Below are positions 1 through 41,317 of a stretch of DNA of 46,011 nt, piece by piece. The stretch spans positions 1 through 46,011 of IMG/VR virus record IMGVR_UViG_3300009285_000960; one strand, written 5' to 3'. Under the pieces are notes generated by a model that saw only the letters and a program-made list of their open reading frames with translations, was not told the DNA's origin and did not search any database. Made by a program: the position numbers and the translations under genes. Positions within the stretch are counted from its first letter, which is position 1. Every line of letters begins with the position of its first letter. The stretch is from a virus.

Positions 1-6
1 ATATTG

Positions 7-390
7 TCAATACCCAAACGTTACTAACGCTTTGAGGTTTCTTTCTTTTAAGTTTTTAAGCAATATCTGATAGTCTTCTGGTATCCTTTTTATGATTTTA
101 TTTCTATTTTCCATTAAATATGAATATCTTTCTGGATACTTCTCGGAAAACCACCGCATAGCTTTTAACGGGTCGGAGTGCCAGACTCGAATATGACAAA
201 AATAGCAAAGTGAGAGGCCATTAAATATATCCCACCTTAAAGTTTTATTAGTTCGGGGAATAACATGAGAGCATTGAAGCATACCCGCCCTATTACCGCA
301 CCACTCACAAAATCCTTTCTCCCTTATAAGCTCCGAATAGGCCTCATCGCACTCTTTAATCCAATATTTTACTCCTGTGGCTTTTCGCAT
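7..390 (-). CDS. NinG/HNH-like recombination nuclease
   Basis: 127 aa. Two CxxC pairs (CEWCG near residue 28, CYFCH near 62) bracket a QCSHVIPR segment and LRWD, the layout of lambda NinG-type HNH proteins, which process recombination intermediates. The start overlaps the end of the upstream gene by 22 nt, so the two are translationally coupled. Its TGA stop lies inside the TTGACA of the promoter that spans the contig junction. The family call rests on the cysteine/histidine pattern only; a generic HNH endonuclease is the alternative. Confidence 0.6.
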   Translation of the reverse strand: MRKATGVKYWIKECDEAYSELIREKGFCEWCGNRAGMLQCSHVIPRTNKTLRWDIFNGLSLCYFCHIRVWHSDPLKAMRWFSEKYPERYSYLMENRNKIIKRIPEDYQILLKNLKERNLKALVTFGY

Positions 391-7478: not shown

Positions 7479-7796
7479 ATGAGAATAACTATCAAAATAC
7501 CTCCAACCTCAAACGGTAAATGGTTGCTTCTCAAAGGTTCTGGTGGACACCCATTAAAGAAAAAGAGTGCTACTTATACCTTTTTAGCGTTAGAACGATT
7601 TTTAGTTAAGAGTCTAGGCACGAAAAAGATGGAGAACTACACAATAAAGGTCTTATACCCAGATAAAATGAAAAATGAAACCTTGCCCTCAAAAGATATC
7701 AGATATTTATTATATGCAACTGCGTGTTTTATGGAAGATTGGTTGCCTGAAAAGACATTAAATGATAAATATAAAAAATATGATTTACTATGTTAA
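7479..7796 (+). CDS. Hypothetical protein, first gene of plus-strand cassette
   Basis: 105 aa. N-terminal strands (MRITIKIPPTSNGKWLLLKG), basic middle, helical C-terminus with YLLYATACFMEDWLPEKT. Not recognised. Starts 10 nt after the promoter, without a Shine-Dalgarno. Likely co-transcribed with the next small gene. Confidence 0.55.
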   Translation: MRITIKIPPTSNGKWLLLKGSGGHPLKKKSATYTFLALERFLVKSLGTKKMENYTIKVLYPDKMKNETLPSKDIRYLLYATACFMEDWLPEKTLNDKYKKYDLLC

Positions 7797-7971
7797 TTTA
7801 GGTAATGGTATTATTGCGACTAATTCTTATGAAGTTGAAAGACAAATATGGAAACAACATAATACTAGAACGGAAGAATGTGTGGTCTTTGAATTCATTG
7901 ACTTCAATAAATCAATTCAAAATATGCTTGAGAGAAGATTTCCTGTTCTAAACAGTAAAAGTAACTATTGA
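7780..7971 (+). CDS. Small hypothetical protein
   Basis: 63 aa from ATG 7780 (MIYYVNLGNGIIATNSYEVE); the in-frame ATG 7762 is an alternative. Overlaps the upstream gene. The TGA stop (7969-7971) is part of the TTGACA of the next promoter. No motif recognised. Confidence 0.5.
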   Translation: MIYYVNLGNGIIATNSYEVERQIWKQHNTRTEECVVFEFIDFNKSIQNMLERRFPVLNSKSNY

Positions 7972-7995
7972 CATTATAATTAAGTATGATAAGAT
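7968..7995 (+). promoter_or_regulatory. Promoter TTGACA-16-TAAGAT for the RAMP-like cassette
   Basis: Plus strand: TTGACA (7968-7973), 16-bp spacer, TAAGAT (7990-7995) followed at once by AGTATCAATAAG, the GTATCA core seen at other early promoters. A leader of about 30 nt precedes the ATG at 8034. The stop codon of the upstream gene is embedded in the -35. Confidence 0.6.
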
Positions 7996-8033
7996 AGTAT
8001 CAATAAGAATAATGTGAAAGGTATTGAAAGAAT

Positions 8034-8630
8034 ATGGGATTAAGAGAAATAAAAATTAACATACCAGCACCCAACATACAAAGTATGAAAATTAAAATTC
8101 TTGGAACTTCCCCACTAATTTGTCATCAATGGAGTGAAAAAGCAAAAAGAGAGTTTAGAGAAAGACAGGCTGGCAAGAAAAAGAAAGTAAGAGAAATTAG
8201 AAATCCGAAAGAGGAGTATGAAGCTTCTTATTATCGTAATTCTGAAGGTAAAATTGCGTTTCCCGCATTGTGTATTAAACAAGCTATGGTTAATGCTGCT
8301 AGAAACATAGAAGGAGTAACAATGACATTGTTAAGAGGTTCCGTGTTTGTAGCAGGAGACAAAGATGGTTTAATTACAGTTCAATATGGTAAAGAAAGAA
8401 TGAGAGAGGATATGGTGAGACTTGGTGGTATTAGTAATCCAGCCGATTTCAGATACAGAGGAGAATTAAGTGATTGGTCTATGGAATTCATAACCAAATT
8501 TAATGCTGATGTGATTTCTGCAGCAATGGTAGTCAATTTGATACAAACGGCAGGATTTGCTTGTGGAATAGGGGAATGGAGACCTGAAAGAAAAGGAGAC
8601 TTTGGAACATTTCAGGTAAGTCAAGAATAG
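8034..8630 (+). CDS. RAMP/Cas7-superfamily-like phage protein
   Basis: 198 aa. RAMP-like layout: an N-terminal strand with KIKILGTSPLICHQW, a middle AFPALCIKQAMVNAAR resembling the RAMP 'IPGSSLKGALR' helix start, and a C-terminal glycine-rich loop AGFACGIGEWRPERKGDFG (173-191), which matches the G-loop position of Cas7/Cas5/Cas6 proteins. The basic stretch RQAGKKKKVREI (45-56) is a likely nucleic-acid-binding loop. Cas7-like proteins coat RNA or ssDNA. No other cas gene or CRISPR array is present. The gene runs straight into a GGNNN pentanucleotide array. The fold assignment is inference from motifs; the gene itself is secure. Confidence 0.6.
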   Translation: MGLREIKINIPAPNIQSMKIKILGTSPLICHQWSEKAKREFRERQAGKKKKVREIRNPKEEYEASYYRNSEGKIAFPALCIKQAMVNAARNIEGVTMTLLRGSVFVAGDKDGLITVQYGKERMREDMVRLGGISNPADFRYRGELSDWSMEFITKFNADVISAAMVVNLIQTAGFACGIGEWRPERKGDFGTFQVSQE

Positions 8631-8743
8631 GTATGGCAGGTAAGGTTCGGTTCGGTTGGGAGTGGTAAGGTGGGTTAGGTTAGGCAGGTGGGGTTTGGTA
8701 CGTTCCGGTGAGGCAAGGTTTGGCTTGGTTCGGCTCGGCAGGC
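8630..8743 (+). repeat. GGNNN pentanucleotide array (about 22 units)
   Basis: From the last base of the upstream stop codon, GG recurs every 5 nt (occasionally 4) for about 110 bp, with three variable bases between. Units include GGTAT, GGTTC, GGTTA, GGCAA, GGTTT, GGCTT and GGCTC. From 8687 to 8738 the phase is exactly 5 with one degenerate unit at 8702. The strand is G/T-rich in an otherwise AT-rich genome. Stops occur in all three plus frames (8641, 8666, 8676), so it is not coding on that strand. It lies in the sense orientation of the RAMP-like gene's transcript. Confidence 0.85.
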
Positions 8744-8765
8744 GATAGATTGAAGGTGAAATATA

Positions 8766-9206
8766 ATGATTAAAAAAGATATAGTATTAGAAACATTACA
8801 GGGATTAGTTAGAAATGGTCAAATAAAACCAGAAGACGTTGTTGAGTCAGCAAAAAATGAAGATTCTCCAATTCACAATAACTTTGAGTGGAATAATACG
8901 AAAGCTGCTCAAGAATATAGACTTTGGCAAGCAAGACATTTAATTGTTTATAAATTCAAAATTGATGGTCAAACAGAACAACAGTTTTATAATATTAAAT
9001 TTATCGTCAACGATGTTCCAGTTCAGGGATACTTTACTAGAGAGAAAATATTATCTGATAAAGAAATGTATTTACAACTCTTAAAAGACGCTATTGATGA
9101 AATCAAATACTGGGAAAAGAAATATAAGCAAATTAAAGAACTTAATGGTATTGTCAATGATACCAAGATAAAAAAGTTGTCAGATAAATTATATAAACAA
9201 AAATGA
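8766..9206 (+). CDS. Partner protein of the RAMP-like/GGNNN cassette
   Basis: 146 aa. The segment around residues 35-60 (SPIHNNFEWNNTKAAQEYRL followed by WQARHLIV) resembles a motif I associate with phage proteins near such RAMP-like genes: short acidic/aromatic 'H..FEW....AA.EYRL.QAR'. The C-terminal half is a helical coiled coil (LQLLKDAIDEIKYWEKKYKQ). Good Shine-Dalgarno GAAGGTGA after the GGNNN array. Function unknown; its place suggests it acts with the RAMP-like protein. Confidence 0.6.
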   Translation: MIKKDIVLETLQGLVRNGQIKPEDVVESAKNEDSPIHNNFEWNNTKAAQEYRLWQARHLIVYKFKIDGQTEQQFYNIKFIVNDVPVQGYFTREKILSDKEMYLQLLKDAIDEIKYWEKKYKQIKELNGIVNDTKIKKLSDKLYKQK

Positions 9207-39526: not shown

Positions 39527-39728
39527 TTTGTTTATGCTTTCTAAGAATACCACTTAATGAGAAATCTGGCTTACTTTCTTTTTCTATTTCAACTTCATCT
39601 GGAGTGGGTTGCTTGGTTATCTTGCCTACTTCTTGGGGTTTATGGGGGATTGTAACTTCTACTGGATAAAATACTTTCTCTTTGGTTTCACTATCAAGGC
39701 ATAAAATGCCTACTGGGATTATAGTCAT
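39492..39728 (-). CDS. Hypothetical protein coupled to groEL
   Basis: 78 aa: short beta N-terminus (MTIIPVGILCLDSETKEKVF) and a disordered charged tail. ATGA overlap with the groEL stop, so translationally coupled to the chaperonin. Could be a client or cofactor, but there is no motif. Confidence 0.45.
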   Translation of the reverse strand: MTIIPVGILCLDSETKEKVFYPVEVTIPHKPQEVGKITKQPTPDEVEIEKESKPDFSLSGILRKHKQNEENLPKNPLA

Positions 39729-41317
39729 TTTCGTTTAGTCTTATCATCTTCTGTCGTAGGGTCAATAGCAATTAAAACCTCGGTTGTTAAGATACTCGTG
39801 CCTACACTAAAACTATTCTCAATTGCCTTCCTAATCACTTTACTAGGGTCTATAATTCCATTCTCTACTAAATCAATTACTTTACCGCTATTTACCTCAT
39901 AGCCGAAGTTTCCATCTTTCTTCATAATTTCATTAACTATCTTGTCTGGGTTTTCTTCTGCACAATTTTCAAGTATTTTGTAAATAGGGCTTCGTAGAAC
40001 CGATTTTAAGAGGGCTTTGGTGTCGTCAGATACATTAGCATCATCTAAAACAGGTAACAATCTAAGGAAGGCTGTGCCTCCACCAGCTACGATACCTTCT
40101 TCCCTGGCGGCGGTAGCGGCTCCGATTGCATCTTTTACCCTCTCAACTTTTTCTCTCATATCTATATCTGTTTTTGCTCCTACTCTAATAACAGCTACTC
40201 CTCTGGTCATTCTGGCTAATCGTTGTTCTTCCTTCTCTTTTTCAAATTGTGATTTCTCTCTTTCCATCATAGCCTTGATTGACTTGACTCTTTCTTTGAT
40301 AGCTTCTGGGTTTCCTTTACCGCCTATTACGATTGTTGTATCCCTGTCTGAGATAACTTTTTCTGCATGACCTAGCCATTTAAGGTCATCTGTTGCGTCT
40401 TGCTCGGTATTTATTACTCTACCGCCTGTCATTACCGCTAAATCATCTAAGAAATTGTCTGTATCGTAGCCTGGAGCTTGAATTGCTATTGCATTTATAT
40501 TGCCTTTGTATTTATTAACTCCCATTGTAACTAGGGCATCTCCTGTAATATTTTTGGCTATAACTATAATGTTTTTGGTTTCTTTGGCTATAACTTCCAA
40601 GAGTGGGCCTATTTCTGTACCTAATGAAATCTCCTTTTTAAGAATAACGATTGCGGGGTTTTCTACAACCGCTTCCATTCTTGAAGGATTGGTTACAAAT
40701 ACAGGAGTACCACCAACTAATAAATAACCTTTATTAAACTGCATACCTTCCGTATAATCTACTTCTGTTTCAAATTGTGTGCCTTCTTCGGGTACAACTA
40801 AGCCGTCTTTGCCTACTTTGTCCATAGCAATTGATACTTTTTCTCCTATTTCTTCATCTGCGGAGGATATTGTGGCTACTCTAGCTATTTCTTCTTTGTT
40901 TTTGATGGGCTTAGATAATTCTTTGATTTTATCTATTAAAAGAGGAAGGACTTTGTAGATTTCTGTTCTTAAAACCATTGGGTTTACACCCTTGTCTATC
41001 AATTCTAACCCACCCTTAACAAGCTCATAAGCCAATAGAGTAACAGTTGTAGTTCCGTCTCCGACTTCAAGATTATTTTTTTCAGCAGCCACACGAATTA
41101 AATCTATCCCAATCTTTACAAGCGGGTCATTAGAGTTAACCTCTTTCATTACGGTTACTCCGTCATGGACAACAAGCGGTATTCCCCATTCTCTCTGAAT
41201 GGCCACATTTCTACCTTTAGGGGATAGGGTTGTGCAAACCACATTAGCCGCCAACTCAACCCCTTCAAATAATTTCTCACGAGCCTTTTTTCCTTGTGCG
41301 ATTATCTTGTTAGCCAC
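39725..41317 (-). CDS. groEL: Phage-encoded GroEL-like chaperonin
   Basis: 530 aa, full chaperonin length. ATP site GDGTTT (86-91), TLSPKGRNV (30-38), catalytic Asp52 (HDGVTV) and Asp396 (RVKDAIGAA, equivalent of E. coli D398), EGMQFNKGYL (190-199), and EEGIVAGGGTAF near 407. The Gly-Gly-Met C-terminal tail is missing. Sequence is strongly diverged from bacterial GroEL but all ATPase residues are kept, so it should be active. Starts at GTG 41317 with GGAG inside the end of the HNH gene. Probably folds phage capsid or tail proteins. Confidence 0.95.
   Translation of the reverse strand: MANKIIAQGKKAREKLFEGVELAANVVCTTLSPKGRNVAIQREWGIPLVVHDGVTVMKEVNSNDPLVKIGIDLIRVAAEKNNLEVGDGTTTVTLLAYELVKGGLELIDKGVNPMVLRTEIYKVLPLLIDKIKELSKPIKNKEEIARVATISSADEEIGEKVSIAMDKVGKDGLVVPEEGTQFETEVDYTEGMQFNKGYLLVGGTPVFVTNPSRMEAVVENPAIVILKKEISLGTEIGPLLEVIAKETKNIIVIAKNITGDALVTMGVNKYKGNINAIAIQAPGYDTDNFLDDLAVMTGGRVINTEQDATDDLKWLGHAEKVISDRDTTIVIGGKGNPEAIKERVKSIKAMMEREKSQFEKEKEEQRLARMTRGVAVIRVGAKTDIDMREKVERVKDAIGAATAAREEGIVAGGGTAFLRLLPVLDDANVSDDTKALLKSVLRSPIYKILENCAEENPDKIVNEIMKKDGNFGYEVNSGKVIDLVENGIIDPSKVIRKAIENSFSVGTSILTTEVLIAIDPTTEDDKTKRK

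Follow-up and report, generated by a model that had tools for sequence, protein, structure and literature searches.

What kind of system is encoded where a short phage gene runs directly into a series of GG dinucleotides at five-nucleotide steps? This question is raised by a locus in a 46,011-base virus record of IMG/VR, the whole of which is called the window here. A preliminary description of the DNA took the locus for an undescribed system made up of a RAMP/Cas7-like gene, a GGNNN array and a partner gene. However, such a system was already described in April 2026, with its repeat code, targets and function, under the name of VIPR (PMC13142463). VIPR (Viral Interference Programmable Repeat) consists of a phage-borne RAMP protein, Vipr, and of the vrRNAs of ~100 nt that it binds (PMC13142463, bioRxiv 2026.04.26.720920). 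The vrRNAs are made of 9-16 YNNGG repeats, in which the NN pairs determine the DNA target under a 1-nt-skip rule, and the effect is the silencing of competing mobile elements (PMC13142463). The experiments were done on the SUSP1 and P. fulva systems, and array architectures differ between VIPR types (PMC13142463). A literature search found no second paper on VIPR. We consider it very probable that the locus in the window is a VIPR cassette of a tailed phage, that is, an RNA-guided DNA-binding system, and a new, unrelated system is ruled out by the homology to SUSP1 Vipr. The support at this locus and its relatives comes from homology, a predicted RAMP fold, array statistics, linkage, turnover and the guide of one relative that obeys the skip rule. 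RNA expression, RNP formation, DNA binding and silencing are what we infer for the window from the experiments on SUSP1 and P. fulva.

The vipr and vap genes

The two open reading frames that had been claimed, of 198 and 146 aa, are both present on the plus strand (Table 1), as is the glycine loop GIGEWRPERKGDFG in the 198-aa protein. This protein is a clear member of phrog_4652 (E 7.8e-33), a PHROG family listed with unknown function. Compared alone with all PDB chains, it gave one match up to E = 10, namely 36pp (phmmer, 8.7e-7), whose chain D is the 'SUSP1 Vipr protein'. A profile of 16 relatives (alignment A1) found 36pp again (5e-10) and no other significant PDB match. The sequence-level homology to SUSP1 Vipr is limited to the C-terminal third of the 198-aa protein. 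Pfam, NCBIfam and PADLOC returned nothing useful for vipr or vap, and there was no Cas match in PADLOC. Furthermore, when the AlphaFold2 model of Vipr (pLDDT 81) was compared with the PDB by Foldseek, the best 50 listed matches were all CRISPR-Cas effector entries (Csm, Cmr6, type VII, Cas7-11), with E-values of 1.9e-5 to 6.5e-4 and moderate TM-scores of 0.36-0.56. The proposal of a RAMP/Cas7-like protein was borne out by these fold matches and by the homology to SUSP1 Vipr; an unrelated fold would have spoken against it, and the model instead resembles CRISPR RAMP effector subunits. The G-loop itself was modelled at low confidence, so its assignment rests on the alignment and not on the model. 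In A1, G174, C177-G178, G180-E181, R183 and G191 are invariant, and the loop GFACGIGEWRPEK is largely so. Two marks of a Vipr protein are thus found here: a RAMP fold with a glycine-rich loop (from the predicted fold and the alignment) and homology to a known Vipr (36pp).

Table 1. Features of the vipr-vap locus, with positions in the window.
Feature	Position	Strand	Sequence or description	Basis
Possible sigma-70-type promoter	7968-7995	+	TTGACA-16-TAAGAT, TG before the -10	Consensus match only
vipr	8034-8630	+	198-aa RAMP protein (phrog_4652)	Homology to 36pp, Foldseek
vipr motifs			Conserved EDMVR-G; C-terminal G-loop GFACGIGEWRPERKGDFG	
Predicted vrRNA array	8630-8745	+	GGYNN units with GGCA dividers, 116 bp	Chain score, parse
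First divider	8635-8638	+	GGCA (register shift)	Also in nearly all homologous arrays
Guide A	8639-8682	+	9 units, one only 4 nt: GGTAA GGTTC GGTTC GGTTG GGAGT GGTAA GGTG GGTTA GGTTA	
Second divider	8683-8686	+	GGCA	
Guide B	8687-8736	+	10 units: GGTGG GGTTT GGTAC GTTCC GGTGA GGCAA GGTTT GGCTT GGTTC GGCTC	
Guide B, predicted target			GGxTTxACxCCxGAxAAxTTxTTxTCxTC	Target rule from PMC13142463
Array end	8737-8745	+	Terminal GGCA (8737-8740) and GGCGA	
Shine-Dalgarno-like sequence of partner gene	8752-8759	+	GAAGGTGA	Read directly in sequence
vap	8766-9206	+	146-aa putative accessory protein (phrog_15946)	Homologues at vipr loci

Class 1 CRISPR-Cas RAMP effectors (Csm3, Cmr6, type VII Cas7, Cas7-11) share with Vipr the predicted RRM-type RAMP fold, the glycine-rich loop and, presumably, the coating of a guide RNA by protein at regular steps. 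However, the window lacks a repeat-spacer array, its information lies in dinucleotides and not in contiguous spacers, and there is a single small RAMP. The array consists of GGYNN-type units only, a tandem-repeat search with a finder not dedicated to CRISPR detected no long direct-repeat array in the window, and a cas gene set (Cas1/2, several RAMPs, a large subunit) was not found among the flanking proteins, vipr and vap. The predicted fold does resemble type III and type VII RAMPs, which bind RNA targets, and function has been measured only in other VIPR systems; both points would suit a Vipr-like system whose target is RNA or ssDNA, or whose role is that of a decoy or scaffold against host CRISPR, and not one that silences DNA. 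We regard this as very unlikely, given that the published VIPR RNPs attach to dsDNA and can silence whichever strand is targeted (PMC13142463) and that there is no hint of an RNA target or a nuclease at the locus. Among the roles suggested earlier for the array, those of decoy, nucleation scaffold and ssDNA are without support at the locus, whereas the guide-like one, with one repeat per protein step, was right, and the system matches VIPR (PMC13142463). The suggested G-quadruplexes are not required to account for the array.

The 146-aa protein is a clear member of phrog_15946 (2.1e-21), again of unknown function in PHROG. Of the first 22 vipr loci compared, 21 have a homologue, Pseudomonas phage LESphi2 being the only exception. 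It is this linkage to vipr that marks the gene as a vap in the broad sense, and not specifically as one of the vap1-6 of PMC13142463. The fold of Vap had no significant match in the PDB, and its weak matches include several winged-helix proteins. Vap would be an accessory protein and is probably DNA-binding.

The window also holds phage genes for a terminase, a portal protein, a major head protein, a CHAP endolysin and GroEL, and no tRNA genes were found in it. The GroEL-type chaperonin lies on the minus strand at 39725-41317 (phrog_5725, E 5.8e-114). The neighbours of vipr and vap are two unmatched short ORFs, the CHAP endolysin and a large protein with weak matches of tail or structural type. 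The short ORFs (7479-7796 and 7762-7971) are located on the plus strand directly upstream of vipr, in a region that is otherwise minus-strand; neither had significant database relatives or counterparts in the homologous loci. Because of these ORFs, the cassette may not be wholly self-standing, as had been thought. The possible promoter is a decent consensus match, with 10 of 12 positions matching in the -35 and -10 boxes and a TG, but such matches in the AT-rich stretch (15 found) were not clearly above those in shuffles (9.6 +/- 4.1). No Rfam RNA, hammerhead included, was found in the window and nine related loci.

The GGYNN array and its dividers

As first described, the array starts at the vipr stop codon (on its last base, 8630), contains stops in all three plus frames and differs sharply in composition from its surroundings, with a G+C of ~56% in a region of roughly 30% and a jump in G skew. 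A chain of 22 GGs, mostly spaced by 5 nt, extends over 8630-8741. Its score is 33, while 20,000 first-order Markov shuffles that kept the composition of the array reached 20 at best and the best chains elsewhere in the window 5-7. The 5-nt rhythm is therefore far beyond shuffles, but it does not form the one run that had been perceived: two guides are split by a 4-nt GGCA. The units were delimited by a dynamic-programming parse, which reads GGTAT, GGCA, guide A, GGCA, guide B and GGCA GGCGA. The idea of GG followed by a free triplet also had to be corrected. What stays constant is GGY, with 19 of 20 units having a pyrimidine at position 3, and what varies is the NN of positions 4 and 5. With guides of 9 and 10 units, a constant GGY and hypervariable NN, the array has the 9-16 YNNGG repeats of VIPR. 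It is short and slightly degenerate, with a 4-nt GGTG in guide A and a deviant GTTCC in guide B. Single-sequence folding of the array found no structured element and no unusual predicted fold. A structured 3' tail as in SUSP1 vrRNAs is not visible either; the guides pass directly into GGCA and from there into the next one.

The GGYNN grammar with its GGCA divider recurs in phages of Gordonia, Mycobacterium and a cyanobacterium, and also in many IMG/VR contigs and bacterial genomes, Firmicutes and proteobacterial elements included. The 624 clade units in 58 in-frame guides had G in 94%, G in 85% and C or T in 94% at the first three positions, followed by all four bases at positions 4 and 5. The guide length between dividers was a whole multiple of five in 58 of 76 intervals. 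Since the divider recurs and guide lengths are multiples of five, we infer that the GGCA unit would mark the ends and starts of guides. As a positive control, the parser was applied around SUSP1 vipr and returned four repeat tracts, which is the number of vrRNAs in the preprint (PMC13142463); each of them runs into a separate non-repeat tail and not into GGCA. A very long array was seen in locus L005 (1396-2280), with ~14 GGCA-divided blocks. Its units are GGNNN with a weaker pyrimidine rule, often GNNNN right after a divider, and possibly represent a variant repeat consensus.

Linkage, position and turnover of the array

The array belongs with the RAMP-like gene, as originally supposed. The search for homologues yielded an array within 1.5 kb and on the same strand in 58 of 65 vipr-homologue loci, phage and bacterial; a lack of adjacent arrays at the homologues would have spoken against the link. 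Three further arrays were found in 310,709 bases of more distant sequence, and none on the opposite strand. Of the seven array-less loci, two stop at vipr itself, and in a third no more than 535 bases follow the gene. The closely spaced GG runs, with one broken and one deviant unit, could also be seen as a degraded or simple pentanucleotide repeat, or as a G-quadruplex-forming tract, unlinked to the neighbouring protein. The probability of this is negligible. The simple repeat was rejected on the linkage, which holds in 58 of 65 loci and on the same strand only, and on the strict GGYNN and GGCA grammar across Gordonia, mycobacterial, cyanobacterial, Firmicutes and proteobacterial elements. Furthermore, a constant GGY with a variable NN is unexpected of slippage repeats or G-quadruplexes.

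The position of the array bears on another explanation, in which the array would act in cis within the vipr/vap mRNA, e.g. as an autoregulatory leader of vap to which Vipr binds, and would not be a source of trans-acting guides. Its location between vipr and vap, in the window and in Firmicutes-type loci, would suit such a role. However, in Brocalys and LESphi2 the array precedes vipr, in alphaproteobacteria and loci L003/L004 it follows vap, and in L010/L011 arrays flank vipr on both sides; an mRNA-only element was rejected, as the position is not fixed. In the IMG/VR contigs L010 and L011, the NN bases have turned over while the genes are nearly identical (vipr 96.7%, vap 96.9%): the 5' arrays are 67% and the 3' arrays 74% identical. 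This divergence is expected if guides are replaced faster than genes. In addition, one guide, when read with the skip, fits vipr genes that belong to other elements (see below). We therefore hold a cis-acting role to be very improbable and return to the array as a probable set of VIPR guides. Two adjoining guides of L010 (4624-4732) have a seven-unit core in common, GGCAT xGTCT GTCGG GGATA GGCTC GGCAA GGCGA, which points to the duplication of guides and their subsequent drift.

The nearest relative, L002 (68% amino-acid identity), shares DNA with the window over the vipr cassette only, in the 9.5 kb of L002 compared, which suggests that the cassette is transferred as one piece. Vipr and Vap homologues are annotated as hypothetical in 32 Mycobacterium and Gordonia phage records (e.g. 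NC_031262.1, NC_031249.1, OP820472.1), and arrays were seen in the three loci of these phages that were examined. These phages are cultivated, and thus laboratory-tractable hosts exist. Pseudomonas phage LESphi2 encodes a distant homologue of Vipr, and array-like tracts precede its gene.

Guide targets and the proposed role

The predicted target of guide B had no exact match in IMG/VR or in GTDB genomes. Without the deviant unit, guide B gave 2 matches, against 0 for one permuted control and an estimated ~2 by chance. One, in L028, is in frame in an ORF of another AT-rich phage, named from its sequence by eye as a FEN/T4-RNase-H-like exonuclease; the other, in L027, is outside any long coding ORF. 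Both were rejected as targets in view of the ~2 chance matches expected. Guide A, read with its 4-nt unit, had 4 matches, all of which lie antisense and in frame within ORFs from other phages, including a pair of ORFs homologous to each other. They were likewise rejected, as their number is at chance level, and a strict-register reading of guide A gave 0 matches. The window's own guides therefore have no convincing target among the IMG/VR and GTDB searches. Target matches were also absent for the guide of the closest relative, L002, and for a Sphingopyxis guide that was compared with 349 genomes from the same family. Guides in general, compared with all loci, showed no clear general excess over shuffled guides.

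The 1-nt-skip code was observed for the guide of one relative, Sphingomonas soli (L032), while the guides of the window, L002 and Sphingopyxis were without significant targets. The first guide of L032 (5051-5090) has the NN pairs GA GA AT GT CG GT GG AT. Read with the 1-nt skip, it matches 16 of 16 bases in 13 other vipr genes, always in frame and with the skip at the wobble base. The match covers the conserved vipr codons EDMVRVGM, and the guide's own vipr matches at only 13 of 16. Among 4,700 shuffled guides, not one matched a vipr gene at 95% or more. In the 349 family genomes the pattern occurred 3 times (estimated expectation ~0.5; reversed-pattern control 1), one occurrence being the vipr of Sphingopyxis indica. 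This is a single case, one guide in 235, and guides as a whole were not seen to match vipr genes more often than expected.

On the model of the known VIPR systems, the array would be transcribed into short RNAs, and would supply two guides, 9 and 10 repeats long and delimited by GGCA. Along each guide, every 5-nt GGYNN repeat would be coated by one Vipr subunit, which would hold its constant GGY and present its variable NN pair. The RNP would then bind dsDNA by reading NNxNNxNN, with one skipped base per repeat, and once bound would keep a competing phage, satellite or prophage from being transcribed. Vap would assist, probably through DNA binding. By analogy, the cassette is probably used to silence competing viruses. 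A further idea, which combines two parts and which we put forward tentatively and with some doubt, is that GGCA acts as punctuation that shifts the 5-nt register, with Vipr filaments stopping and starting and tail-less guides packed head to tail, and that in addition some guides aim at the EDMVRVGM codons of rival vipr genes, wobble-skipping giving one guide a broad spectrum and the owner's gene keeping protective mismatches.

The closest described system is the type II VIPR of the Escherichia phage SUSP1 (PMC13142463). Both have a small phage RAMP protein (198 aa in the window, 195 aa in SUSP1) with significant homology, runs of 9-16 tandem GGYNN units in which NN varies, and an accessory gene alongside in a compact two-gene locus. 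In contrast to SUSP1, the guides of the window stand head to tail, set off by GGCA and without a structured tail per guide, the array lies between vipr and vap, and Vap has no detectable homology to the neighbouring 146-aa gene of SUSP1. The architecture of the window may be the variant that the preprint calls 'staggered arrays with overlapping vrRNAs' (PMC13142463).

The locus was recognisable as VIPR-type from raw sequence by an independent reader. It is of minimal size (one ~22-kDa protein and two guides) and is therefore convenient for bench work. The GGCA-divided guide architecture and the anti-VIPR guide are both outcomes that can be tested. Through the two proteins of the window, the PHROG families phrog_4652 (Vipr) and phrog_15946 (Vap), both listed with unknown function, are now tied to VIPR, together with the 'hypothetical' genes of the 32 Mycobacterium and Gordonia phage records.
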